Assembly (NCBI GenBank): GCA_037576195.1
Contig: CM075102.1
Span: forward strand, 13,636,745 to 13,700,744
DNA: 64,000 nt
Origin: Phytoseiulus persimilis
Taxonomy: Eukaryota > Arthropoda > Arachnida > Mesostigmata > Phytoseiidae
Direction of reading: 5' to 3'
The notes under the pieces were generated by a model. That model was not told the origin of the DNA. It ran no database searches and saw only the letters and a list, made by a program, of their open reading frames with translations. Shown one piece after another: positions 32,101 through 60,779 of this stretch. The translations under genes and the position numbers were made by a program. Position 1 is the stretch's first letter. Each line of letters opens with the position of its first letter.

Positions 32101-33960
32101 ATGATGTTGACGCAGGCGACGTTCCTTGCTCGTGGCGTGGAACTGTCTTTCGAGAGCTGTGTCGGACCTGAATCAGAGAATCCGGAAGTTTTCAAGTGCA
32201 CTAGCCGCCCGTTCTGGGATTGTTCAAATGGGAGAGGCGAGCTGCAGCGGTCCTGCGGTCGCTGCCTTCGACCGTCTAGGAAGAGGAAGAGTTTGGCAGA
32301 GCGAGACAAGAACATATACGAATTTTCAGACTATACAACTGAGAGTGAGTGTTACTGCGATTCTGGTTCAGTATTCTCAGGGGGTGCGCCAACCTCCGAT
32401 GCTGATGAATCCGATGACCCGCGGCCCCCCGATCAGAAGGAATCTCGGTGACGTCGAACGCTCCAGCTCTCTGGAAGGGTTTAGGCCAACAATATCTCCG
32501 CAAAATCGATTGCTCTGCGCGTGGGGCTGTCCATCACCACGCAACCTTCCCTCCGGAGATCGATAATTTGCAACCAGCGCAAGTGTACGAGATCGTTTTC
32601 AACAAGGACCTTCTCGACTTCGCTGCGGAAACCAAGCGGAACGCGAGAAAGTACATCAGCACTGAGAAGTTAGCTCCGAAGAGCAGAGCAAGGTCTTGGA
32701 GAGGAACGTGCTCAGAAGAGCTGAGGAATTTTTTTGGCATTGTTCTGTATACTGGAATCGTGAGGTATCCGTGCATGTACGATTACTGGAGCAGAAACTC
32801 TCTGTATGGGAATGATCTCATCACCTTCTGCATGAGCCGAAACAGGTTCCAATCACTGCTCCGTTTCGTGCATTTCTCAGACAACAGCGAAGGTGACCAC
32901 GCTGATAAGTCGAGAAAGTTCATCAAGGTGCTCAACAAGCTCCAAGACAAAATCAGCGAAGTTTTCACACCGGGAGAAAAACTGACGGTAGATGAGACCA
33001 TGATCCCGTTCAGTGGCCGGCTTTCGTTCCGCCACTATATACCTAGTAAAAGTCACAACTATGGCGTCAAAATGTTCAAACTCTGCAATCCCGGGGGATG
33101 CACGCTTCGAATGCAGATATTCACGGAAAAAAAGGCCGTTTTTAGGAGTCTTCCGGCCGACATCGTAATGGACCTTTCTGAACCATACCAAGATGAGGGA
33201 AGGACAGTGGCTACTGACAACTACTTCACTTCCGTGCCCCTCGCGAGAGAATTACTGCGACGGCGAACCCATCTTGTTGGAACGCTGCGGGGAAACCCGA
33301 AAACGTCTGCCGCAATACGTTGTGAACACGCGGTTACAGCGGAATCAAATCGTTGGAAGGTTGTCAAGCGATGGAATCGTTGTCGGCAAATGGAGAGACA
33401 AACGCGACGTGTTTTTCCTCAGTACAAAAAACGATCTCCGGATGGTGGAATCAGGGAAGTTGAGGAGCGATGGCTTTCGAAAAATCACACCAGCCGTAAT
33501 CCTTGACTACAACATAACTAAACAAGGCGTCGACATGTCGGATCATATAGCGAGCTATCATTCTCCATTGAGGCGAAGTATCCGATGGTATCACAAAGTT
33601 GTTTTCGAAATCGTCTTGAATACTGCCATTGTCAATTCTAGATTCAGCAAACTGACGAAGAAAAACGTATCGATGACGAGTTTCCGCGAAGCAATCATCC
33701 GGTATCTTCTTGGCATTGACAAGCCTCCGTTCCAGAACAGGGAACGCTCCTCTCGCTCGGAACAGGGCCATAACTTTGGTTCCATCGATGTCAACGATGC
33801 TAGGTATCGGAAAATGAGAGAGAAATGCCAAGACTGTTATTCTGAGACCGCGAGCCCTCAGGGTAGGCTGGCGGCTCAGAACACAGTGAAAAAAGTGAAT
33901 ACAAGGTGCCGAGAATGTGAGAAATGGCTGTGCACGGGCTGTTTCATCAAGTCTCATTAG
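32101..33960 (+). pseudogene. piggyBac transposase, interrupted by two frameshifts
   Basis: The frame from 32101 gives an acidic N-terminus (SDADESDDPRPP). Near the C6 run at about 32425-32430 the homology moves to the frame that runs to about 33290, then to a third segment ending with TAG at 33960. The core carries the three catalytic aspartates of the piggyBac DDD triad: LTVDETMIPFSGR, TVATDNYFTSVPL and GVDMSDHIASY. The C-terminus has a Cys-rich zinc-binding finger (CQDC, then CRECEKWLCTGC). All hallmark motifs are intact, so inactivation is recent or the shifts are assembly errors. The protein would cut and paste the element between its terminal repeats. Confidence 0.85.
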
Positions 33961-43089: not shown

Positions 43090-44411
43090 TCACAGGGACG
43101 GCTTCCAAGAGAGCAATCCAGTGTCTGGAGCACTTGTCATTATGAGTTTCTGAACTTCTTTGAACTTCGGATGAGAGGATCCTCCGAGGAGAGACAGAAT
43201 CGCCGATTCACTCGTCGTAATGAAGGCTCCTGACATCTTCATTCGGTCGAACGCGATGAATCTGGAGAGTAATTCCTGAACTTTGAAGAAATTGGGCGAG
43301 AGTTTGGACAGTTATTCATGGCATTTCTCCAGCGACGCGGAGGGTACACGTATCTGCTTGTAATCTTTTTGGATCTTCCTGCTACGATAGGACGGTCTTC
43401 GAAAACCTAGAAGCGATGGAAGGAGCGAACTCCAGCCGAGTAAACATCCGCTGTAGAATAGTTTTTGTGGGCTCGTGGTCGGTTGTGCTGTCGGAGACAT
43501 TTTCCAAGGCCTCTTCGAGAGCACACATCTTGGATGTAGATTCCAAGCGGATCGATTTATCGTCCAAACTGTCATCTGCTATTTCCCGACAGAATTCTGT
43601 GTGATCTCTCGAGTGAAACAGAACACTCCAGAACCTTAGCTGGGGAAACACCTAGTCGTGCTGGTTCTAGAAGATAACTCACCTGTCAACGAGAGTTCGC
43701 GAAGAACAAGCATCGGCTACTATATGGACTGTGTAGCCATTCTCGAGAAGATTCAACGCTGTGTTCTGTACACAAACTTGTGTCTCGAGACCACACAATA
43801 TGACCGAATCCACCTGCAAATGGTATCCGTGCGTCACACGGATTCAGAATCAGGGTTCTAGTTCGACGCTGATGTCGATTCGGAGCCACCGAAAATCAAG
43901 CTCCGTATTTCGATGGAATTCGATCCCGAGGTCTCGACATTAATGGACGCTCCTTCAGGATGGCAGCTCCGCATGAAGACGCTGTCGGCGGCTACTCACA
44001 TTTGGGTATTTTGACTTCATCATCTCGATTATTTCAGGTGTACACATAGAAAATTGGGTTTTGGCCACAGGGTTAATTTCCGGGAACTTGTCGATGCCCA
44101 ACTCTGCGACTGTCGAACCGAGACCTTGAAAGGGACGGGAATTGAGGTGGAACTCCTCGCGAAAAGGAGATGACGAAGACCAAGAACTACATTGGTTTTC
44201 TGGATCGAGCTCGTTGTGTTTCTTTACCTTTTGGATACTGTTCTGTGACAATGACAGGCATGTCGAGAGCCTTGGCAGCCATCAGCATCCGATTGGAAAC
44301 TTCAACTATCTCAGGGAAATACTGGATCATTCTCCGGAATTTCTCTTGGAGGTCGCACAGAAATAGAGCTGTCCGACCCGGTACGAGTCTACCAATGCTT
44401 CGAGCGGCCAT
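43090..44411 (-). CDS. ISOC2: Isochorismatase domain-containing protein, ISOC2 type
   Basis: Four exons (44411-44228, 44124-44000, 43813-43683, 43261-43090) join in phase to 203 residues, the same size as human ISOC2. Recognisable blocks are [69 protein letters not shown] and [14 protein letters not shown]. The cysteine-hydrolase triad is intact: Asp20 in FLCD, Lys83 in VAK and Cys117 in QVC. The family has an isochorismatase fold, but the animal substrate is not established. No signal peptide is seen. The longest intron (43262-43682) holds only a chance ORF. Confidence 0.93.
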
Positions 44412-47400
44412 GCTGAAATCTGAATCGGAGGCCTGGAGTGAATGCCCAGAGATCGGTTGGTTGTGACCCTGGGATGAGTAGGCAGTTCTCCAATAAATCA
44501 GAGCAGATACCCCGATCCATAAATGAAGCAAGTTTTCCCTGGATCAGCATGAGGACACAGCCACGAAATGAAGTACCTGGCATGGATCACCGACCCAGTG
44601 CATGGTGCAGATAGTTCATGATATGGATAAACCACAGCCTGAGCTACCACTCCTTCGGGAAAACATACGCGACACGAGAGCTTCGTCTCCTCCACCTCTC
44701 GTATTTGCATCTCTATCCTCGAGACGGGGGCTTTGCAGAAACAGATAGAGTAAGGACACCAGCGGGGATGAATATTCCTGCATCTGATACGAGGAAGTTC
44801 CTGTGATCAGAGGCAAGATATTGTGCTCGTCCACTCTTCAGCTTCCATTCGTCGTGGAGTCAGCAATCATCAAGTGAGCTATGTTGTCGCTGAACCCCGG
44901 TCTCGCTAAGCAGGTCTCGCGCAGATAAATAATCGCTGGCGCGAAAAACATCTATCACAGGAATTCGACAGAGACTTTCATCGTTAAGGAAAACAAACGA
45001 TGGACTTGGTTCTCCAGTCGGTAAGCCGAACGTGGACTCCAAAGGAGATGTTATGTCTCGGCAGTTGCGAGGCGGACCTTCACTTTTACTTCTTGCCGCC
45101 GCTCCTCTAGTTGGTCACCATCCCCGCACGAAAGTCCGAGAAACATCCCCACAGAACTAGAGCTGGCGGGAGCACCCCTGATGTCGCGGTTCGCGGTTGT
45201 CTCATTCGTAGTTCCTTGTCAGGTCCGTGATTTCCGGCGTCCGTCATTGGGGAAAAATAGTTCGGTGTCGCTCCGAAGCAGAACCCAAAAGCTCACCCGG
45301 TCGTTCTGAAGCGCTGATCACTACGGCTTTCTCGATGGCTATGGTAGCTATCAACGAATCTCCTGACCTTTAAGAACTGAAGCGAGGGCACGTGTCACAG
45401 TAGGAAATAATCGACTTCCACTGGTTTCCAAAAATTTTGATCTGTTATCTGATATCTGTAAGAGAATCCGAGAACCACCCGGCTCCTCTCTCGTGTGTCC
45501 AGTAAAGCAGAACAGATGGTGCGCGAACGGACCGAATAAATAAACCCAGCGAAATTTCGGGTGACCGACTCAGTGTAGACTTCCTCAGATTTGTTGACGC
45601 CGGAATCGGTCCCAACTGAACGGTACTGTGCTCAGGCCAAGTTAACAGTCCGGATGTTACCTACCGTTCCGCAGAATATGTAATAGGACCCTTAGACAAG
45701 CGGACGCAGAAACCGTCTCTATCGAAGCGAGCCGCTTTGGGCCATGTTTTCCAGACACCGGCTAACTAAAATTTTCGATCCCGTTGTCCGGTTCAGTTTG
45801 CCCTCCGGGGACTACTCAATCAAGAACTGTGCTGTTCCGTCCACAGATGCAGATTCTTTCGCGTCTGGGAGGATTGCTTTCGTATGCCAGCTCCGTGGCC
45901 CAGCATAACCCATTGTTCCTAATACCTGTCAGGAACCACATGAGGAAACATTTCCCCAGACCCTCTGAGCACAAAAGAGTCACTAAACACGGGTAAGGAC
46001 CTTCCCGATCAGAGCTACGTATCCGTTCCGACCAGCAGTCCTATATTGCCTCCACTGCGATCTTTTTCCGGAACTATTTGGAACACTGGCCCGAGATTTA
46101 TCGATGAAGATCCTATCGTATTTGGCCAGTGATTGAAGTCCATTCGCCTCTTGTCACCAATCCATGGTTTCTCCATCATTCCAGATACTTCACTCGCTTG
46201 AAGACAAAAGGAGGACGTCTCATTCTCATGAGAAGATTTCTCAAGGGTCGCCATGTGCTTTCGCATTGATTATCTGTCCGTTCTCATCTCTAGAATTGCC
46301 GAATAAATCATTCATTCTCAACGGCTCGCGTATGTTCGTCTTAGCGCAGTTGGAAGGCTTCCGCGGAACATTTGATCATATCGCCCATGGAAGTGAAACT
46401 GCCAGGGGACATTCTCTCCCCGCGTTCCATCAAGAAACGACGGATGTGTTGGTAGAAGTCGAAATTCTCCGGAAACGATAACTCTTACTGCTGTTGTTGC
46501 GTGAGGAAGCAGCGAAGGCGTCCGAGAGACATGAGAGTTTTGCACGCTGCCTGCTGGGAACCACGAAGGCTGTAGTTGGCCCGAAAAAATTACCAAATCA
46601 CAGGGCGGGCCAGAGGATTCGTCGATAGAGGGCACTCCCGATGAGAGGCGGGACTGTCACATGATAATCAAGATGAGCGCACTCTCCTAATTAGGGAATT
46701 AATATGTCGTGGTAGTCCTTTCAATTTATAACAATGAGTCGAACGAGGAAGTCATTGTTCAAGAGAAGCTCGGCTGAGCCGGTTGATGTCGTATCGACAG
46801 CACATCGTGAAGATCACCCTCAGAGTTCTGTGTGCTCGTGAGCGAATCCGGATGCAGGAAGTGACGCCCATTGGCTGAAGAAGTTTCGATTATGGCGGAC
46901 TGCCGTCCTCTACCGAAACGAAGCAGCCCGGCCGTCGCCAGCGAGAATCTGCCGCTTGAGGCTGAAACCTCGTTCTTGTCAGGGGGCGAACCTGCCACTG
47001 CTCGTAAATTATCGAGCCAGCTCAAGCTTCGAGTATCATGGCGCTTTCGTCGCATTCGATTCAATACCTCGCTCCGGAATTCTGTGAATCGCTTCCAGGT
47101 CCGAGTACATATATGAGGGTTCTCTTTCCGTGGAATATCTGCATTCTCAGTGCTGACATCCGCGGAGCGTCCGTCAACGAGAAGATCCCAATGATCTGTC
47201 GGTCTGCCTCTGACCGTTGAGACTTCGAGCGCACTGAAAACCCATAATTCATTCATCCCAGCCCGATGAATATGAACCGAGACGAGACCACAGGCACCAG
47301 AGAAGAGCCGAGCCCAATGTAGGTTGCGCACGCCGGGAGAAGTGGCTTGGAGCCGGCACACGTTATCTGACATCATCAAACCTCATGCATTGGTGGGAGC

Positions 47401-49600
47401 GAACGAACTTATCTGGTACGTACGTGGTCTGAACCGCAAGTCTCGTTTGGAGCTACATACATAAGTTTCCCGATCATGCAGGTTTAACCCTCTTCTCAAG
47501 ATGAGTGTCAAACCTCGCTGAGTTTGCTCCTACGGTATCACTCGATCAAGATCATCCCCTTCAACTGGAACTGAGGAGGCTGACCGAAGATTTCTTCGAT
47601 TACTAGTTCTTCCGATTTCATCTACTCTGGAGAAAGTTCTGTATATGAACGTACCCGAATAAGATTGCATGGCGGGATTGCTGAGCATTCCGTACTTCCA
47701 CACGGAGCTGAGAAGCAACACCGTCCAATCTCACTAGTTTGCGCAACGCATACACCTCCTCCAAGTGAAACCGATATCTCTGCTTGAAAAGATGTAATCA
47801 AGATCCGCGGTGGAATCAGCCGGAGGAATATGGGTCGCTTGCTTGGGTCCGGTAACGGCACTATGCCCCCCAATAACGCGCCGATCTCTTGACCGACGAG
47901 AACAAGGTCAGTATGCACTCGAAAGGAAGCTCTCTTATTTCAGCACGATACAGCGATGATGAAATCTTTGCGTGGTCCAAAGTCGAAGGCTATAAATACA
48001 TCTTAATTACCTTCATGGGTGCTTATTGAATGCAGTGACTTCCGGTACACGTTCCGACATTTATCCGATTTGATCGACCTAATAAGTCGCTGAGCCTGAG
48101 GATTACCTCCCTGGAATCTCGACGAACTTCAATTAGCCCTCTCGAAAAGTAAGCGGCGAGAATCAAGTCGCGGAAAGGCCGAAAGATGGACTTTGAGCGG
48201 TGTAGAGGTTGCTTCGAGGCATCGACGACAGGCACTCAGCTCCATGCACACCTAACCGTTTCATCTCGAGCTCAGGGTCGTCAAAGTCGATCTTCTCACG
48301 TCTCGAAAAAGAGACGTGGTCGGCGATCAGAATGAGCAAGTGAAGTTGAAGCACAATCCGGTCCCGATCCTCAAAGCGGAGCCCCTTCCACGCTCTTGGA
48401 AAAAAGAGCCGGAGGAAACGCTCCAAGGCGATTATTGAGAATGGTTTCCCTCATCTGAGGAACTTTTGGCTGGGACCGCAACACGCGCACAAGTTGATCG
48501 TGAACGTGAAAATCGGTCCCTTTACAGAGAGAAAGTGAGGCTCAAGGCAATTCAACTGCATTCTTCCAGCATCCTCGACGTGATGAGGCAAAGACCAAGG
48601 GAAAGATAGCGAGCCAAATATAGAAACAGCTCGTGTATCTTGTTGTCGTTCTGTTTTCGGGGCGTTCGTGACTAGGAGGCAGACTAGATGGACTGGGATT
48701 ATCGGGGCGCGCCAAGTCCACAGGTCTGGTGGCAGTACACTTAACTGCTCGAAGAGAATTCCAACTTCCGCGGTTTCTGGACGAAAGTATTCGATCCCGC
48801 GTGTCCCGGAGAGCGGAGTTTTTCTCGCAAGTCATCGCCGCTGGGCTTCCAAGCGGGTTCCGTGGTTTCGGCCCGGTCTCGATGACGCCTTGTGCAAGAA
48901 ATCGGTTTTCAGACTTCCGAATACGCCGACGCACTCGTCGTGAATGCGCTCACAATGTTACCTTCGCTGGCCGATGCCAGTCACGCTTCGACCGTCGAAG
49001 CGAAGAGCTCCGACTTTCCAGTGATGGTGAGAACCGTACATGAGTCTGAAAATCGAGAAAATCCGTTCCGGATTCGAGTTTGTGATAAAGTCGGATCGGG
49101 ATGTGGCGACGCTCATTCATGCAAGTTTCGAAAGCGCCCCAGCGCACTCTCGGCACACTTTCCGCGAGGGATCCGTAATTTCATGGATAGGACGAGGTTG
49201 TGGATGTCCTGCGCCCTGAACTAATTATGAGCGTCACCATGTAACTATATCATCAGAACCCTCAACAGCTGCGCCTTGCCGATCGAGCCTACCGCGCTCT
49301 CACTCTGGTTGGTTACCTCTCTCATTTTCCGTTTGAGTTTCCATTCCCTTCTTTGAAGCAGCGAACGCGCGGACAAAAACACCCAACACCACATGGGTAC
49401 TGCTCATTCGAAGAAGATTCCAACAACGTTTCCTCGTCGGTTTCCATATTCAGAAGTTCGGAACGTGTTCTGAACACGTCGACGGAATGTGCCCGCTCTC
49501 CTAGCTTCAGTGTTATCGCCGCACAACGGCTCCTGTAGTCGCCGTCCTTGCTGCTCTCTTTGTTGTTGTTTTTATCAGCCCTGGGCAGAGAACTCGACCA
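44412..49600. other. Gap: 5 kb without a confident gene
   Basis: Many overlapping ORFs occur and none has a recognised domain. A minus-strand ORF at 46759-47379 is 206 codons long. On the opposite strand an ATGGCGGAC start (about 46892) with an inverted CCAAT box just upstream opens about 75 codons (MADCRPLPKRSSPAVASENL) up to a possible donor near 47098. This could be a first exon, but no continuation was found. An ATG at 49040 opens a 59-residue frame (MSLKIEKIRSGFEFVIKSD) that looks protein-like but unassigned. Confidence 0.4.
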
Positions 49601-49660
49601 CCACCGTTGTGACTGTTCAAGAACTCCGGACGTTTGTAATAGCTTCTCGCGAGCAAACAT
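49322..49660 (-). CDS. Possible divergent 112-residue ORF at the dehydrogenase start
   Basis: The ATG at 49660 on the minus strand overlaps the plus-strand dehydrogenase ATG (49659-49661). The frame is open for 112 codons, with a polar N-terminal half, a glutamate-rich stretch and a CGVGCFCPRVRC cysteine cluster near the end. No family is recognised. It may be chance. Confidence 0.25.
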   Translation of the reverse strand: MFAREKLLQTSGVLEQSQRWWSSSLPRADKNNNKESSKDGDYRSRCAAITLKLGERAHSVDVFRTRSELLNMETDEETLLESSSNEQYPCGVGCFCPRVRCFKEGNGNSNGK

Positions 49661-52600
49661 GGGCTACATGTTGGTGTTGTTCAACTGGATCATATACATA
49701 GTGGAAATGTCACGGATGGTATCGGAATTCATCCGAGCCATCCTCAACAGCTTCCTGACTGTGTTCCGTCCGCCGCCGCCGAAAGATGTCAGAGACAGAG
49801 TTGTGGTAGTAGCAGGGGCCGCGTCCGGTCTCGGGAGCGAGATTTCTCATCGGTTCGCCCGACTTGGAGCTCAAGTCATCATGCTTGACATCGACGAGGT
49901 AAGCGCTTCCCGGAACAGGTTCTGCTCTGACTGCGCAAATCGATGACCAACGTGAACCGCCTCGACTCTCAATTGAGCACCACTCAATTGAGGCGAACCT
50001 CTCGTAGGAGTCGCAAACGACAGGAGTCAGTAGACGGAGTCCATAGCAGTAGATGAAAACGTTGCTGCAGCGTGTCGTCATCGTAATCACTCGCTCAGCT
50101 ATAATTTCCACCCGAGATCACGCAAAAACGATGGAGCAGTCCCAGAGATTGAAAGTGATTCAGTAGTGACATCGCGTGGTCTCATTATAACTCCGTCTCG
50201 GGAGGAGGCAGCTTCGTTCGTTTGGAATCGTCAGAGGAGTCAAGGATGCGTTCAGGCCTCTCTGTTCTGAAAACTCCGGGACTCGCTCTTCGACGTTGGA
50301 GATGCAGTTTCGAATTCGCGCTGGGGGCAGTCGGATGCGGTTTCGATATCAGAGGCTTTGACGGCTGCCGGAATGGACGAGCCAAAGGTGGAAGGTTGAA
50401 ATTTTTGCCTTGAGAGACGACCGGGTATCAATTGTTAGATGGCCACACAACAATCTCGACAAATCCCTGGAATTCAACTCGCTAGAGATCCCATCCAGGG
50501 AAACGAGTGTCATGGAGCGGAGGAGAGCTGTCCAGAGGTGGAAGCGTTCCGTTCCGCAAGTGAGCGGGAGCACCTCATGCCCGCGCGCCGGACTCCGTGC
50601 GCCATGCGATTCGAAAGAATCTCATTTTTCGCTCTGCTCCTGATCGCCGGAGAGAATCGCGCTAAATTCGCAACGATGGGAAGTAGTCTCCCGCAGTTCG
50701 TGACGCAAACCGGTCTGCCGCCCAGCTTGCAAGCAAGCAGCATCAAGGGGCTTTTCGAAGTACCGTTTCATCCCCATCTCTTTTTCGTTGGAGGGATCCT
50801 CTATTACGCGCGGCTTTTCGAGAGCAAAAAGCTTGCTCTCTACAAAGGTCAACAACCTGAGAGGGGGCGCTGCCAAAAAATGACACAGGGCATCTAATGG
50901 AGCGACGTATTGTCCTCCCGTGGACGGTTAGAATTTCAGGGTTGTTGCACTGGACTGCCGATAGTGGTGCTTTCTCTCGGGTTCATTCGAATCCGGCTGC
51001 TCCATGAGGTCATACTCCTGGCCATCAACCCTGGGAGCTTATAGATTCCTGGACGAGCTGTGCGAAACTCCGATCGATACCCTCTCATGATGATCTAGGA
51101 CTCGCTCCAATGACAGAGGTCCTACATCCCGACCTCCGGATATGACACTGATTGATCTGAGTTCCTCAATGTGATCTTTCACGTTTTCAGCATGCCAACT
51201 TGCAAGCCGCGAATGAGTTGCGACGCATGGGCGATGTCAAAGTTTTCTCGTTCCCTTGTGACGTGTCGGTCGAGTCGCAAGTAAACCAGGTCGCGGCGAA
51301 AATCCTCAAATTTTTTGGCAAAGTTGACATTCTGGTGAACAATGCAACTTGGTGCGAGCCGCTCTCCGCCTCGCCCCTCATCAGGAGTCCCTCGGAGAGC
51401 ATCCAAAAAACGTTGACTGTTAATCTTTTGTCGCACTTTTGGGTGAGTTAGGAGCGCGCGCTCGGATCGCGACCGGGCGAATTACGATGAATCATGGAAT
51501 ATGCGAAAATATGCTCTATAGTTCTCCTGAAAATTTTCTCCGCAGATCACACGAGCATTCTTGCCGTCAATGATAGAGAAGAAATCTGGACACATCGTGG
51601 CTATATCGTCGTTATCAGGGCTGATGGGTACCTCGAAGTACTCTTCGTTTTGGTGAGTTTACGAATCAGATCGCGATTCGGAGCACATTGCTCGGACGGA
51701 GAGTCAGCTCCGGGAGTCTGTATTTTCCTCTGAATTTTTCCGCGGGACGGATGGACGGCCCTTGTCTGAGCGTTTCAAAAAAAAAAACAGGAAGGAAAAA
51801 ATGCTCTTTCCAGCGCCTCACAATACGGGGTGATGGGCGCCATGTCGGCCATGGCCTCTGAGCTCGAAGAATATCCGGGTATCTATGTGAGCACAGCCTG
51901 CCCTGTGGTTGAAGGTCCCAGCGTCATCGAGAGCGTCCTACCTCCCGCTCTGAGGAAACTCCTCGATCTCGAACTTCCTTCAGTACGAGAAACCGCTGCC
52001 TTGATCGTCGACGCAGTTTTGAGGAATCGCGAATTCGTCATTGTGCCCAGAGGCTTCGCAATCCTACGATGGATCGATCAGTGAGTTCTTTCTCCGCCGA
52101 TCTCCAAATGAAATATCCAGTTAAAAGTAACCAAAACTCTTCCTTGGCGTGCTCGTCTGCGACAACAGCGTGAGATACTGGTTGTTGTTTTGCCTCAGTT
52201 CACGGTCACCATACCCAGCGCAATCTCTGCACAAAGGTCACTTACGAGGTTATCGTATAAACGTAATCTGCCACTGATTAGTAGAAACAGGCGGGCAGAC
52301 GCATGAACCTCCCGACGTAAATAACAGTCTCTTCGGACTCATCGGAGCCTGAAGCCTGGAATCGCAGACGAGCTCTGTCAATACGACGGGTCTGAAACGG
52401 CCGAGCTTCGCTGAGGTTCCAGTCTTCCTGGACTTGGGGAGAAACAGCAGCGATTTTCTCCAGTTTTCCCCGGGCCTCGTGCAGCGCTTTCGATCGCTTG
52501 AACAGGGAGTGCGGAAGAGTGCGATAACGACTCGGAAACTAAGATGAACGTTTCCCTCCCCTTTCGCAGGTTATTGCCGCAGAAACTCTATAAGTTCGCG

Positions 52601-52693
52601 CAGGAAGCATTCATCAGAGAGAACCTGCAATCACCGACGCCTGGCTTCCGAGAGTCCACGGGACGCATCACGAACGGCAACTCGTGCCATTGA
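49659..52693 (+). CDS. Membrane-anchored short-chain dehydrogenase/reductase, predicted catalytically dead
   Basis: Exons 49659-49898, 51191-51442, 51546-51652, 51814-52080 and 52570-52693 join in phase, giving 329 residues. An N-terminal hydrophobic helix (MLVLFNWIIYIV) is followed by the Rossmann fold. The layout resembles the SDR16C retinol/17-beta-hydroxysteroid dehydrogenase group. The cofactor motif reads AGAASGLG at about 52-59 (usually TGxxxGxG), and NNAT at 130-133 replaces NNAG. The active site reads SSFCASQYG: Phe199 and Gln203 stand where YxxxK has Tyr and Lys. The serine-containing ISSLSG and VNLLSHFW helix are kept. The fold and spacing are intact with no stop or frameshift, so it is probably an expressed pseudoenzyme. 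Intron 1 is about 1.3 kb. Confidence 0.85.
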
Positions 52694-52830: not shown

Positions 52831-52836
52831 AATAAA
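52831..52836 (+). terminator. Poly(A) signal of the dehydrogenase gene
   Basis: AATAAA lies 138 bases after the stop codon. Confidence 0.7.
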
Positions 52837-54877: not shown

Positions 54878-57800
54878 ATGAAGGTCTTTTTCGCCCTTGC
54901 GGCTCTCGTGGCTCTTGCCGGTGAGTGATCGTGCGTCGTGATGTCGTGTTCTCCTCAGCGATGGATTTCAATGCGGTGCAGGGTCCCACGAGTGGCTCCT
55001 GCGCAGAAGACGGATCGAAGAGAATCACAATTTAATGCACTCATTCGATTCCAGCTGCCCAGCACGGTGGTTACCACGGCGATAAGGAGATCGTCCCTGA
55101 CCGTGAGTGTGACGTCTCTCGAACAGACGCTTCATGCTAGATTTTAATGATTTCTTTCTTACAATCAGTCACCTAACGCGTGTGTTCCACTCCCCGTCGC
55201 AGTTTTCGAGGGTCAGCGCGAATACGTTTACAACTACCGTTCTCTTGTCGCCACTGGACTTCCCCGTCAATCCCAGCGTTATTCCGGTCTCGAGAAGTAT
55301 GGTGTCCTCACTGTTCAGGTCCACGAGCAGCAGGGCAACACCAAGGTCCTCGGCCTTCGTCTTCGCCACATGATGTCCGGCTCCTTCGACAAGGAGGTCG
55401 AAGATATCGAGAACCGTCGCATCGAGGGTGTCGCTCACTCCGCTGAGGACACCATCGAGAAGTACGGTCCCGTCTTCGTCAAGATTCAGGACAACGAGGT
55501 CCAGAAGCTCAAGACCCCCGAGAACATGCCCGAAGAGGTCATCAACATCTACCGTGGTATCGCCGCCATCTTCACCGTCGGCAAGCCCGAGACTCTCGAG
55601 GGTGACGACCATCCCTTCATGCCTCAGGAGAAGCGTTACGGCGGAGAGCAGCAGCCCATCGTCTACCGTCGTCAGGAGGAAGGTATCGCTGGTAACTTCG
55701 AAACCATCTACGAGATCCTCTCCAGCCCTGAACAATGGCAGAACCAGCAGCTCAACCTCACCAAGACCAGGAACTACATGAAGCAGATCGGCGCCGACGG
55801 TCGCATGCTTCAGAACGGTCACGAGCGTCGTGGTTGCCAAAACGTTTGCCGCACTCACAAGCCCGAACAGCTCGACAAGAACATGCAGCCCGAGCTCTCC
55901 GACTGGATGAAGCCCACCGCTGAAGGCTGCCCCGTCAACTTCCACCCCAAGACCGATCTTGTCGAGACCTTCACCACCTACAACTACAACATGACCGTTG
56001 AGCGCGATGGCAAGTTCGCTCTCATCCACGAGGCTCAGGCTCTTGACAAGAAGGTCATCCCCCTCCGCAAGCAGCAGATCAAGACCGTTTCTCTCATCAA
56101 GCTCCACCTCATCGAGGAGCGTCCCCAGACTGAGAACTGGAACGAGCAGCAGGCGACCAAGTCCTACGACGAGATCACCTATCGTTTCCCCGAGGGCCAC
56201 CAAACCGATCTTCAGTACCTCTCCCTCTTTAACAAGGGCGACACCGCTGAGGTTGTCAAGGACCAGATCATCCCCATGATCAAGGCTCTCTCCAAGATCA
56301 TTGTTTCCGAGAACGTCGAACTCAAGGGTCAGACCGGCGACAAGATCATCCAGCTCACCATGGTTCTCGGAAGCCTCCCCAAGTCCCAGCTCCAGTCCCT
56401 CTGGCTGGTTCTCGGCGAGACCGCCACCGGCAAATCGACCTCCGAGCTCGACAAGGTTCAGCGTAAGGTCCTCATCGACACCGTCGCTCTCTCTGGCTCC
56501 AACAACGCCACCGAGTTCCTCCTTGACCTCATCACCGAGGAGAAGCTCACCACCCTCGAGACCCTCGACACCCTTACCACTTTCCAGCAGAACCTGGTCA
56601 AGCCTTCCATGAAGATCATGCAGCAGCTCCAACAAATCCTGACCACTCCCAAGTTCCAGGAGAAGCGCACCATCCTCGGCGCTGCCTCGATCGCGTTCGC
56701 TGAGGTCGTCCGTGCCAACTGTGCCACCCAGACCCACAAGCACAACGGTCATTACCAGCACTTGAACTCCGAGCAGGGCCAGCGTTGCGGCGAACAGGAG
56801 TACAAACAGTTTGTTGAAGCCATCCGCGGCCAACTCCACTCTGCCAAGAACTTCGCTCAGCTTACCATCTACATCCAGACTCTCGGTCGTCTTGCCCACC
56901 CCAAGGCTGTCGAGGCTCTCGTCCCCTACGTTTACGGCGGACAGGAGGTCATTGGACAGCTCCGTCAGATGAACAAGGACTCCGAAGATGATTCCGAGTA
57001 CGTTCAGTTCATCCGCCAGGTCGCTATCTACGCTCTCCACCCCGCCGCCCAGAAGCACGGCGAAGCTGTTCAACCCATCGTCCAGGGTATCTACTTCGAT
57101 AAGCAGCAGGACTACGAACTCCGTACCGCCGCTCTCTCCGTCCTCCTCGCCACTGAGCCCACCGAAGCCACCTTCGGCCGCATTGTCCTCGAGCTCGGAC
57201 AGGAACAAGACCTCGAAGTCGCCTCCTACGCCTACTCCGCTCTCAACCATCTCGCCAACTCAACTCTCCCCTGCATGCAGAGGACCGCTCGTCGTGTCCA
57301 GAACGTCCTCGGTGGACTTCCCGACCAGACTTTCGGTTACCACCACTCCAAGTGGGGAAGCAAGACCCTCTACCAGCAGCTCACCAACGTCGGTCTTAAG
57401 GGCCAATGGGAGGTCACCCAGTCGAATGTTTCCGCCATTCCCCGCGCCTTCTACGCCTCCCTCACCGGAAACAAGGGCCCCTATATTTCCACCGTCGCTG
57501 ACTTCAGCATGGTGACCAAGGGTCTCGAGAACCTCTACCAGTTCATCCACCAGAAGGGCGGTATGAGCCAGATCGTCGAAAACGTCATGCAGCGCATCCG
57601 TCGTGACACCCGTCACGCTGTCGGCGACCAGTCCGTCGAACAAGTTCTCCAACAGATCGAACAGGCCATGAAGTTCAACACCGATGAGAACACCGAGCAG
57701 CCCCGCGCCGTTGTCTCCGGTTCCTTCCTTGGCAACGAGGCTTACCTCCCCATCGACAAGGAGTACATGACCAAGGTCGGCCAGAAGGTCGCAGAGAAGA

Positions 57801-60754
57801 TCGTCCAGCTCCTCAGCAAGGAGGGCGCTGACAAGACCTACCACTACGTCCGCATCCTCATGCCCCGCACCTACGTCCACGTTGCTCCCGCTGTCAACGG
57901 TTTCCCCGTCATCCTTAGCAACCGCAACCCCATCGTTGTCTCGGTTTCTCTCAAGGACTTCCAGACCCGCTTCGGAGCCGAGAAGGGCCAGATGAAGCTC
58001 AACCCCTTCACCCTCGCTCTTTCTGGTCTCATCAAACCCACCGTCTACCACACCTCCATCCACTCTGCTCTGACCATCAACCCTCTCCAGAACACCCGCT
58101 ACGCCCACGGTGTTCGTGCTGTCGAACAGACCTACGTCACTCTCCCCGTCGACGCTTCTGTTCAGTACACACACCAGACCAAGACTTTCGCCTTCACCCT
58201 CCGTCCCCGCTTCGAGACCGTCTTCCTCCACAAGACTCGTGCCATGACTTTCAAGACTGAGGCTCTCCTCATCCGCGGCGTTGACAGGCCCCTCATCGAG
58301 CGTTACAGCGTTGTCAAGACCCAGCAGAAACCTTTCGTCTTCGACCAAACTCTTGGTCAGAAGCTCGGTATGGCTATCCGCGTTCAGGGTATGTCCGAGA
58401 ACGAGGAGTTCGCCGTCAACTTCATGAAACACCGCTTGTCTTTCGAGACCAACCCCCTGACCTCCCTCATCAAGCAGCTCTCCAACGAATGGTTCGTTCC
58501 CCGTGCCTGGACCGTCCGCTTCGAGCAGAACCAGCAGTGGCCCGCGCAGGAGATCAAGATGGTCCTCCGTCTCGGCAAGAACCTCTTCCAGCAGCGTATG
58601 CAGCAGGAGAACGGCATCAAGGAGCACGAACAGGAGCAGCACATGCGCCTCTCCCAGCAACAGATGCAGAAGGAGCGCACCGAGTACCCCGAGCATCTGC
58701 GCATGATCTCTTACGAACACGAATTCGAAAAGATCACCGGTCGCAAGCCCCAGACTCAGCAGCTCGAACAGTCCCTCCAGCATCTTGTCCAGAAGACCGA
58801 GAAGTTCTGGTCGCAGGTTGATCGTGAACTCGGCCAGCAGCTCCAGAAGGAGAACACTCAGGTCCGCTCGATCGAGTACATCATCTCCGCCAAGGGCGAG
58901 AAGATGCCCGTCGCCGTCCACGGTCACGTCATCGTCGCCGCTCTCCCCTCCAAGCAGGCCAAGCTCGCTGAGCTCAAGATGAAGGTTGAGCAGAAGCCCA
59001 TCTCATTCGAGGTTCAGACCGTTTCCGCCACCACCAAGGTCCCCCAGCCCTTCGAGACTGAGATCCGTGAGCAGGACCAGCGCGGCATCATCGGTTTCGT
59101 CGCCGAACTCGAAACTCGCCAAACTGGCAAGCAGCAGTACTCCGGCAAGATCGAGATGAACAAGTCCGAAGAGCAGAAGAAGCTCATGAACGCCCCTAAG
59201 GAGCAGAAACCCTGGTTCTACTCCCAGTGCGAGGAAGACAAGAAGGAGCACAAGTCCGAGATGACCACCGCTTGCGAGAAGGTCCGTTACCACAAGACCG
59301 CTCTCAACCAGCTCCGTTTCGAGATCGAGCTCCCTCAGCAGGTCCACCAGAGCATCGTCAACGCTTCCCACCAGATCCGTGAGACCCTCAAGGTCCGCCT
59401 CTACAGGAACCTCCGCGCCAACTACGTCGCCCACCAGACTACTCAGGAGAACAAGATCCAGGGTGAGCTCATCTACTCTGAGCAGTACCCCGAAATGCGC
59501 ATGGCCAACCTTACCATCCGCACTCCCGACCATGAAGAGCTCCACTTCGAGCGCATCGCTCTCCCCAAGGCTCTCCGCCCCAGCACCATGTGGACCCTCA
59601 AGCAGCAGGTCAAGGCCTTCATGAGGCTCGACAGCCCCGAACGTGAGTTCCGAATCTTCTCGTTCTTTCCTCCATTACTTCGATGAGCACCGACAGATGC
59701 GAATTGAGTTTACGTTGTTGTTAACATCATTGTGACCCGAATGATCTGAATTTCAGCCGTCTGCATCTACAACGGCCAGAACCTCCGCACTTTCGACAAC
59801 GTCACCATTTCCCTCAAGAACATGAAGGAAGGCGAGAAGTACATCATTGCTCGTGACAACAGCCAGAAGCCCCGTTTCACCATCCTCGGCGAGAAGAAGC
59901 AGGCTGGCCAGAAGTCTGAGATCGAGATCGTCCTCCGTGACGCCACTCTCCTCAAGCTTACCCCTCCCACTCAGCAGAGCGGTGCTACCTACAAGGTCCG
60001 CGTCAACTCTACCACCATCGATGTTGTTCCCAAGAAGACCGAAGTCCGCCAGTACGGTCCCGAGAGCAAGCACATGATCACCTTCCACGTCGAAGAGCAC
60101 AAGGAGGGTCAGGACACTCTCGTCATCAAGGTCCGTGACCAGCGCATGCGCATCGTCTACGACGGCAAGAACCTCAAGGTCGAGAACGCCAAGAGGATGC
60201 TCAAGGGCAAGCTCACCGGTCTCTGCGGTGACATGAACAACCAGCACCTCAACGAGTTCACCGGTCCCGAGGGATGCAACTACGAACGCGAAGAGGACTT
60301 TGTCCGTTCTTTCGGTCTTTCCAAGGAGAACCACTCTTTCCAGGGTAAGTGGATGTGCCCCGAAGGTGTCCACCCTCGCAGCGCCTCCCACCAGGACATC
60401 CAGAAGCACCAACAGAACAAGCAGATGCGTCACGAGCTCATGCAGCAGAAGTACCAGCAGCGTCAGAACCTCCACGAGCAGGAGGGTCACATGACCGAGG
60501 AGACTAAGATGATCCCCCACAAGGGAAAGCTCTGCTTCTCGACTGAGCCTGTTGCCGCCTGCGAGCACGGCCGTCGCCAGCTCGACTCCCAAACTCAGAC
60601 TGTCCAGTTCGTCTGCCTGAACCAGAACCACGAGCGCACCAAGCAGCTCCAGCGCGAGGTTCAGACCCAGAAGATCGCCACCGACCTGCCTTATGCCGGT
60701 CACTCGGCTCTCGTCCACCACGAGATCGAGATCCCCACTCGTTGCGGCCACTAA
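54878..60754 (+). CDS. Vg: Vitellogenin (yolk protein precursor), complete
   Basis: Vitellogenin is a large secreted lipid-transfer protein taken up by oocytes as yolk. Exons 54878-54920, 55055-55102, 55203-59642 and 59757-60754 join in phase to 1842 residues. Residues 1-14 are the signal peptide (MKVFFALAALVALA). The N-terminal lipid-transfer module starts at about residue 31 (LFEGQREYVYNYRSL), followed by the DUF1943-type region. Exon 4 holds the von Willebrand D domain (about 1511-1690) with the GLCGD motif as GLCGDMN, and a Cys-containing C-terminus. The basic RIRR near residue 830 is a candidate processing site. No polyserine tract is present. Codons almost all end in C or G, unlike its neighbours. 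Met, Gln, Glu and Lys are abundant. Confidence 0.96.
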
Positions 60755-60764
60755 TTTGACCATG

Positions 60765-60770
60765 AATAAA
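60765..60770 (+). terminator. Poly(A) signal of vitellogenin
   Basis: AATAAA lies 10 bases after the TAA stop, so the 3' untranslated region is very short. Confidence 0.8.
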
Positions 60771-60779
60771 TCCGTTCAA

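Follow-up and report, generated by a model that had tools for sequence, protein, structure and literature searches.

A probably retained SDR16C-type gene of Phytoseiulus persimilis with phenylalanine and glutamine in place of the catalytic tyrosine and lysine

What becomes of a short-chain dehydrogenase/reductase (SDR) when the tyrosine and the lysine of its active site are both replaced? The question is raised by a gene of Phytoseiulus persimilis located at 49659-52693 on the plus strand of the stretch of DNA analyzed here, 64,000 nucleotides of contig CM075102.1 (assembly GCA_037576195.1), which we call the window and whose numbering is used throughout. The gene, a relative of those for membrane-bound dehydrogenases of the retinol/steroid type, reads FxxxQ in place of YxxxK, and a preliminary description of its sequence took this as a sign of selection for a non-enzymatic role. 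Enzymes of SDR16C, the branch to which the gene appears to belong, take part in retinoid metabolism and work at lipid droplets. For one of them, HSD17B13, it has been raised as an open point of medical weight whether catalysis or scaffolding is what matters (PMC10449848). A natural member without the tyrosine and lysine, in which the fold and the membrane-boundary prolines are kept, would allow the two roles to be told apart with no need for engineered mutants. As argued below, the locus probably encodes a protein that has been retained but lacks classical SDR activity, and we assign a probability of about one half to the fuller reading, in which its product is a retained SDR16C pseudoenzyme that works by protein or lipid binding.

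The gene consists of five exons that join into an intact frame of 329 codons followed by TGA, and in this respect the preliminary description of a full-length SDR was accurate. The ATG is preceded by an in-frame stop at 49536, all four introns are of the GT-AG type (donors GTAAGC in intron 1 and GTGAGT in the other three), and a polyadenylation signal, AATAAA, lies on the plus strand at 52831-52836, 138 nucleotides beyond the TGA. All exons likewise lie on the plus strand. Exon 1 (49659-49898) encodes an N-terminal hydrophobic or amphipathic helix, Pro38, Asp43, strand β1, the glycine motif AGAASGLG and the sequence as far as Asp77. Exon 2 (51191-51442) contributes NNAT and the VN158 of the catalytic tetrad, and exon 3 (51546-51652, 107 nucleotides) contributes Ser186 and Phe199, the latter being its final whole codon ahead of intron 3. 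Exon 4 (51814-52080) holds C200-A-S-Q203, helix αF and the loop CPVVEGP with Pro235, and exon 5 (52570-52693) holds Pro292, a C-terminal tail and the TGA stop. The product has the SDR fold, matching Pfam adh_short (PF00106) over residues 47-230 with 147.3 bits at a cut-off of 26.6.

Residue equivalences were taken from an alignment numbered on HSD17B13. The tetrad expected of an active SDR16C oxidoreductase, N144-S172-Y185-K189 in HSD17B13, corresponds to N158-S186-F199-Q203 in the window protein; asparagine and serine are present, and tyrosine and lysine are replaced. The two exchanges on which the preliminary description was built are written in codon 199 (TTT, 51648-51650, plus strand), at the position of Y185, and codon 203 (CAA, 51821-51823, plus strand), at that of K189. 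Phenylalanine at the tyrosine position would, if conserved among species, be the mark of an inactive SDR of the HSDL1 kind. Equally correct was the statement that the first threonine of TGxxxGxG has become alanine (codon 52, GCA, 49812-49814, plus strand). A further change had escaped that list, namely the proline of codon 235 (CCC, 51917-51919, plus strand) in the nicotinamide and substrate loop, where HSD17B13 (T223), HSD17B11 and two paralogs from the same genome, referred to as L023 and L019, all carry the family threonine. The remaining change, from NNAG to NNAT at residues 130-133 (codon 133, ACT, 51347-51349, plus strand; G122 of HSD17B13), is present but less telling than had been claimed, because L023, which bears YxxxK, itself reads NNAA and the fourth position is variable in the family. 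All four of the changes first described are therefore there, but this one is weaker than stated, and their portrayal as independent is unsupported.

The residues that remain are unevenly distributed over the cofactor site. In the cofactor motifs GxxxGxG and NNA are kept (Gly53, Gly57 and Gly59; Asn130, Asn131 and Ala132) with T52A and G133T as the exchanges, and Asp77 (D67 of HSD17B13) and Asp104 (D93) are kept as well. In HSD17B13, D67 is the aspartate that selects nicotinamide adenine dinucleotide (NAD), and the nicotinamide half of the cofactor is touched by the Ser-Tyr-Lys triad and the loop from P218 to T239 (PMC10449848). Projected onto this map, the nicotinamide side of the window protein would be broken and the adenine side largely intact. 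The Rossmann fold may still bind the adenine half of NAD, and hydride transfer of the SDR type would be impossible because the tyrosine, the lysine and the nicotinamide-side threonine are lost. A loss of hydride-transfer chemistry thus appears well supported as far as sequence can tell.

How unusual this loss is can be gauged first within the genome. SDR loci were collected through Pfam and protein searches, the best candidates were scored and their motifs were read by eye; part of this reading sought only motifs that start with tyrosine, so the set is not a full census and further exceptions are possible. Of the 26 other SDR copies in this set, 25 read YxxxK and one reads FxxxK, and the lysine is kept in all 26. 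A broader statement, that every other SDR of the genome has YxxxK, was dropped on account of that one copy, the first of two genes at locus L027 (C3:29932828-29933898; L027 2829-3899), a 357-codon open frame reading AFARSK. In our judgement it belongs to a class resembling retinol dehydrogenase 11 and not to SDR16C; proteins of that type presumably read AYxxSK at this place. Phenylalanine in place of tyrosine therefore occurs twice in the genome, in different SDR classes, and loss of the lysine is seen only in the window gene. Among the other copies, related SDRs are clustered at L036 (YAAAK, YSTAK), L037 (YATAK) and L021 (YCTAK, YTTAK), and the clusters at C1:30.80-30.81 Mb and C2:46.60 Mb suggest a tandem expansion of another SDR class.

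Prokaryotic relatives, of which the best 80 of at least 551 were compared, keep both the tyrosine and the lysine without exception (80/80 each). Position 52 is threonine in 79 of them and serine in one; position 133 is glycine in 76, alanine in three and valine in one, and in none threonine. At position 235 there are 69 threonines, three serines and one each of valine, aspartate and proline, with five sequences unaligned. The two tetrad residues that the window protein retains are also common in this set (asparagine at N158 in 71/80, serine at S186 in 78/80). According to PMC9859523 (section 3.1), the N-S-Y-K tetrad is identical in the SDR16C members of humans and in the invertebrate orthologues of these, and if the window gene counts as such an orthologue its double loss would be an exception to that statement. 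Among the papers listed in a literature search on SDR pseudoenzymes, no title or abstract opening described an SDR16C protein with FxxxQ. Inactive SDRs as such are already known. HSDL1 (hydroxysteroid dehydrogenase like 1), of the HSD17B12/B3 branch, has phenylalanine in place of the catalytic tyrosine and keeps its lysine, as the FARSK gene of L027 does. It is reported, in work of Meier and co-workers from 2009 (reference 36 of PMC9859523), to be an inactive SDR enzyme conserved among species. The window protein, a probable inactive SDR, would resemble HSDL1 in this and differs from it in also lacking the lysine and in its SDR16C branch; what is different here is this branch together with the joint loss of tyrosine, lysine and loop threonine.

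The placement in SDR16C follows from the nearest homologues and from shared introns. The top six matches among the sequences of solved structures are led by 2et6, a two-domain hydroxyacyl-CoA dehydrogenase, and include four chains of HSD17B13 as well as HSD17B11. The latter two, which we take to belong to SDR16C, are 29.6% (82/277) and 28.9% (69/239) identical to the window protein. Two SDR16C-type paralogs were found in the genome, L023 on contig C1 at about 38.33 Mb (YCASK) and L019 on C2 at about 45.79 Mb (YCGTK), the model of which ends short of the C terminus. Aligned with the window protein, they are 33.0% (96/291) and 30.8% (86/279) identical. Both are homologous to it and, unlike it, keep YxxxK along with the threonines of the glycine motif and the loop. 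Of the window gene's four introns, three coincide with those of L023 in alignment column and phase, and one of these also with L019: intron 1 (phase 0) is common to L023, and intron 2 (phase 0, after W164) to both paralogs. In a tree of nine rows the window protein pairs with L023 at a support of 84/89, below the mark for a firm fork. Two more loci with SDR16C-like exon matches, C3:27.85 Mb and C3:3.52 Mb, both with YxxxK, were set aside after aligning, by our judgement, as other SDR classes. No close YxxxK duplicate of the gene was found among the best candidates of the genome, where the other matches are 25-40% identical. Taken together, the gene can be regarded as an SDR16C member by descent, a placement that draws on HSD17B11, HSD17B13 and the two paralogs.

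Would such a gene be expected if it had simply escaped selection? To put figures to neutral decay, substitutions and indels were simulated on the coding sequences of L023 and L019 at six distances, with 20000 runs per distance and gene, kappa 2, and indels at 10% of substitutions, of which 75% shifted the frame. The frame stayed intact in 37-38% of the runs at 0.01 changes per site, in about 5% at 0.03 and in less than 1% at 0.05. Runs that combined an intact frame with a change of both the tyrosine and the lysine never exceeded 7 of 20000 for L023 and 6 of 20000 for L019, and those in which both threonines had changed as well never exceeded 1 of 20000; as the sites were picked after they had been seen to be lost, and some changes may predate inactivity, these figures are orders of magnitude and not p-values. 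The rarity of the double loss in an intact frame makes a recent pseudogene unlikely. Codon use points in the same direction: the synonymous codons of the window gene beat 1994 of 2000 random codings drawn from the intron base composition, which is a modest test, and its GC content at third positions is 0.64 versus 0.52 in the introns. Finally, 36 of the 51 positions that are identical across the four aligned YxxxK members are kept. From these features we infer that the gene has been under purifying selection.

If the product is indeed a retained SDR16C pseudoenzyme, two modes of action suggest themselves, both raised in the preliminary description and both with precedents in the family. The first is action through a paralog, for which the case is tentative: the protein may be a non-catalytic subunit that dimerizes with an active SDR16C paralog through the αE/αF face. 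In this context, the DHRS3 variant Y188A does not reduce retinaldehyde, yet it binds and activates RDH10 and thereby raises retinoic acid synthesis (PMC7022914). The likeness lies in the common SDR16C membership and, if the window protein is inactive, in the dead active site; unlike the window protein, natural DHRS3 keeps its catalytic tyrosine (Y188), and the comparison is one of description, not of sequence. The first candidate partner would be L023 on contig C1, which is a guess. Two observations weigh against an action of this kind. The binding between RDH10 and DHRS3 is highly specific, with RDHE2 failing to activate DHRS3 (PMC7022914), so that L023 is only a candidate; and the dimer-interface peptides, as named in PMC10449848, are no better kept than the core (identical to L023 at 23/64 versus 59/165 positions).

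The second mode, which is somewhat doubtful, is that of a lipid-surface adaptor that needs no SDR paralog at all and for which catalysis is dispensable. Here the models are HSD17B13, which binds ATGL (PMC9630536) and for which a scaffolding role has been raised (PMC10449848), and HSD17B11, which interacts with PLIN5 and aids the association of PLIN5 with ATGL (PMC12743511). HSD17B13 and HSD17B11 (PDB 8g9v, 8g93 and 1yb1, the last without both membrane parts) resemble the window protein in fold and length, in an N-terminal membrane helix that ends at a proline (P28/P38), in the NAD-selecting aspartate (D67/D77), in Ser172/Ser186 and in the pairs P260/P278 and P274/P292. They differ from it at Y185, K189, T223 and S33, which are F, Q, P and D in the window protein, and the alignment gives the latter two insertions of three residues, one following NNAT and one within the substrate loop, as well as an extra C-terminal tail.

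The features bearing on a membrane anchor are consistent with such a role. E16, R19, E23 and R26 are spaced so as to fall on one helical face of a hydrophobic N-terminal stretch, the best 18-residue segment of which has a hydrophobic moment of 0.60. In HSD17B13 the prolines P28, P260 and P274 flank the membrane-anchoring peptides (PMC10449848), and they align with P38, P278 and P292. The N-terminal helix bounded by a proline that is typical of SDR16C is thus present, and we infer a membrane-surface protein, at the endoplasmic reticulum or the lipid droplet, whose core would sit between an amphipathic N-terminal helix and HSD17B13-like prolines. On the other side, the N-terminal helix is less hydrophobic than that of HSD17B13 (mean hydropathy 1.10 versus 1.84), so that the endoplasmic reticulum or the cytosol is possible; and the equivalent of P274 is serine in L023 and hence not a constant of the family, while the L019 and HSD17B11 sequences that were aligned stop short of this position. 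Of the two roles proposed at the outset, adaptor and partner of a paralog, the present evidence appears to favor neither.

A bolder version of the adaptor can be drawn from position 43 (codon at 49785-49787, plus strand), which is aspartate in the window protein and serine in all four aligned YxxxK members, Ser33 in HSD17B13. This serine is a reported target of protein kinase A and, when phosphorylated, is said to promote lipolysis that depends on ATGL (PMC9630536). With the chemistry gone and Asp43 mimicking phosphorylated Ser33, the protein could be a locked lipid-droplet adaptor with lipolysis always on, encoded beside a vitellogenin gene. We consider this highly improbable and give the residue little weight, as the aspartate may be due to chance: the position is variable in the prokaryotic set (aspartate in 5, serine in 11 and unaligned in 44 of the 80).

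A retained pseudoenzyme has to be weighed against a young or decaying pseudogene, in which constraint was lately lost and the catalytic residues drifted before any stop or frameshift became fixed. Several observations speak for such decay and hence against retention. The branch of the window protein measures 2.52 changes per column compared with 0.95 for L023, indicating fast evolution. Codon use gives a fainter signal in the window gene than in its YxxxK paralogs (6/2000 random codings score as high, versus 0/500 for both L023 and L019, each of which beats 500 of 500). All three genes moreover have a codon log-ratio below zero (-73.6, -78.3 and -42.3). The codon reference comprised vitellogenin and the two paralogs, each left out of its own test, and the negative values probably stem from the dominance of the strongly biased vitellogenin, which would leave the comparison with random codings as the informative one. 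The 15 of 51 invariants that are lost are scattered throughout the protein, beyond the active site, and are not clustered at functional sites: 4 of 14 positions taken as functional within the 51 are lost versus 11 of 37 others. In humans, SDR16C6 is listed as a pseudogene (PMC7022914), so losses do happen in this family. Decay nevertheless remains an unlikely account. The start and stop codons, the reading frame, all four GT-AG introns and the polyadenylation signal are intact; at 0.03 neutral changes per site about 5% of the simulated frames were left unbroken, and the double loss was as rare as reported above. The claim of selection for a non-enzymatic role accordingly stands in an indirect form, on the intact frame, the clean splice sites, the simulation, the kept invariants and codon use, and is tempered by the long branch, the weaker codon signal and the scattered losses.

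Still less probable than decay is an enzyme with altered chemistry, in which Gln203 would hold the ribose and Ser186 and Asn158 or Tyr196 would substitute for the lost residues, or which would catalyze a non-redox reaction, as certain proteins with the SDR fold do. In its favor, the protein still carries the glycine motif together with Asn158, Ser186, Asp77 and Asp104, Tyr196 lies three residues ahead of Phe199, and an SDR-fold nepetalactol cyclase (6f9q) is found among the PDB matches of L023. Against this, tyrosine, lysine and loop threonine are all gone, and it is there that HSD17B13 contacts the nicotinamide (PMC10449848).

As the F199 codon directly adjoins intron 3, a misdrawn splice was the chief concern about the gene model. 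Around intron 3 there are 78 in-frame donor/acceptor pairs, and none of the 24 stop-free ones restores YxxxK in the catalytic region, so that an alternative splice of this kind was rejected among the pairs tried. The corresponding exon of L023 is also 107 nucleotides long, with the same phase at its end and Y|C-A-S-K across the junction, so that the junction of F199 and Q203 looks inherited and places these residues on the tyrosine and the lysine. That another splice or an assembly error conceals YxxxK is therefore hardly credible, an assembly or sequencing error being unlikely when Y→F, K→Q, T→P, T→A and G→T are separate changes at five codons across four exons.

Beyond the SDR gene, the window holds several other features. 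A vitellogenin gene with Vitellogenin_N, open β-sheet and VWD domains occupies 55151-59686 and 59750-60754 on the plus strand and starts some 2.5 kb beyond the SDR gene, downstream on the same strand; its two open frames share one phase, and the short gap between them is perhaps a small intron. Opposite it, the minus strand contains long frames at 55169-57259, 57260-59002, 59003-59674 and 59753-60775 (696, 580, 223 and 340 amino acids), which are probably an effect of the third-position GC content of vitellogenin, 0.79, and not genes. Upstream, two overlapping plus-strand frames at 32418-33503 and 33169-33957 match the DDE_Tnp_1_7 transposase, presumably of the piggyBac type, and probably represent a broken copy. 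An open frame at 44187-44543 on the minus strand carries the start of an isochorismatase domain and is perhaps an exon of a neighbor on the opposite strand.

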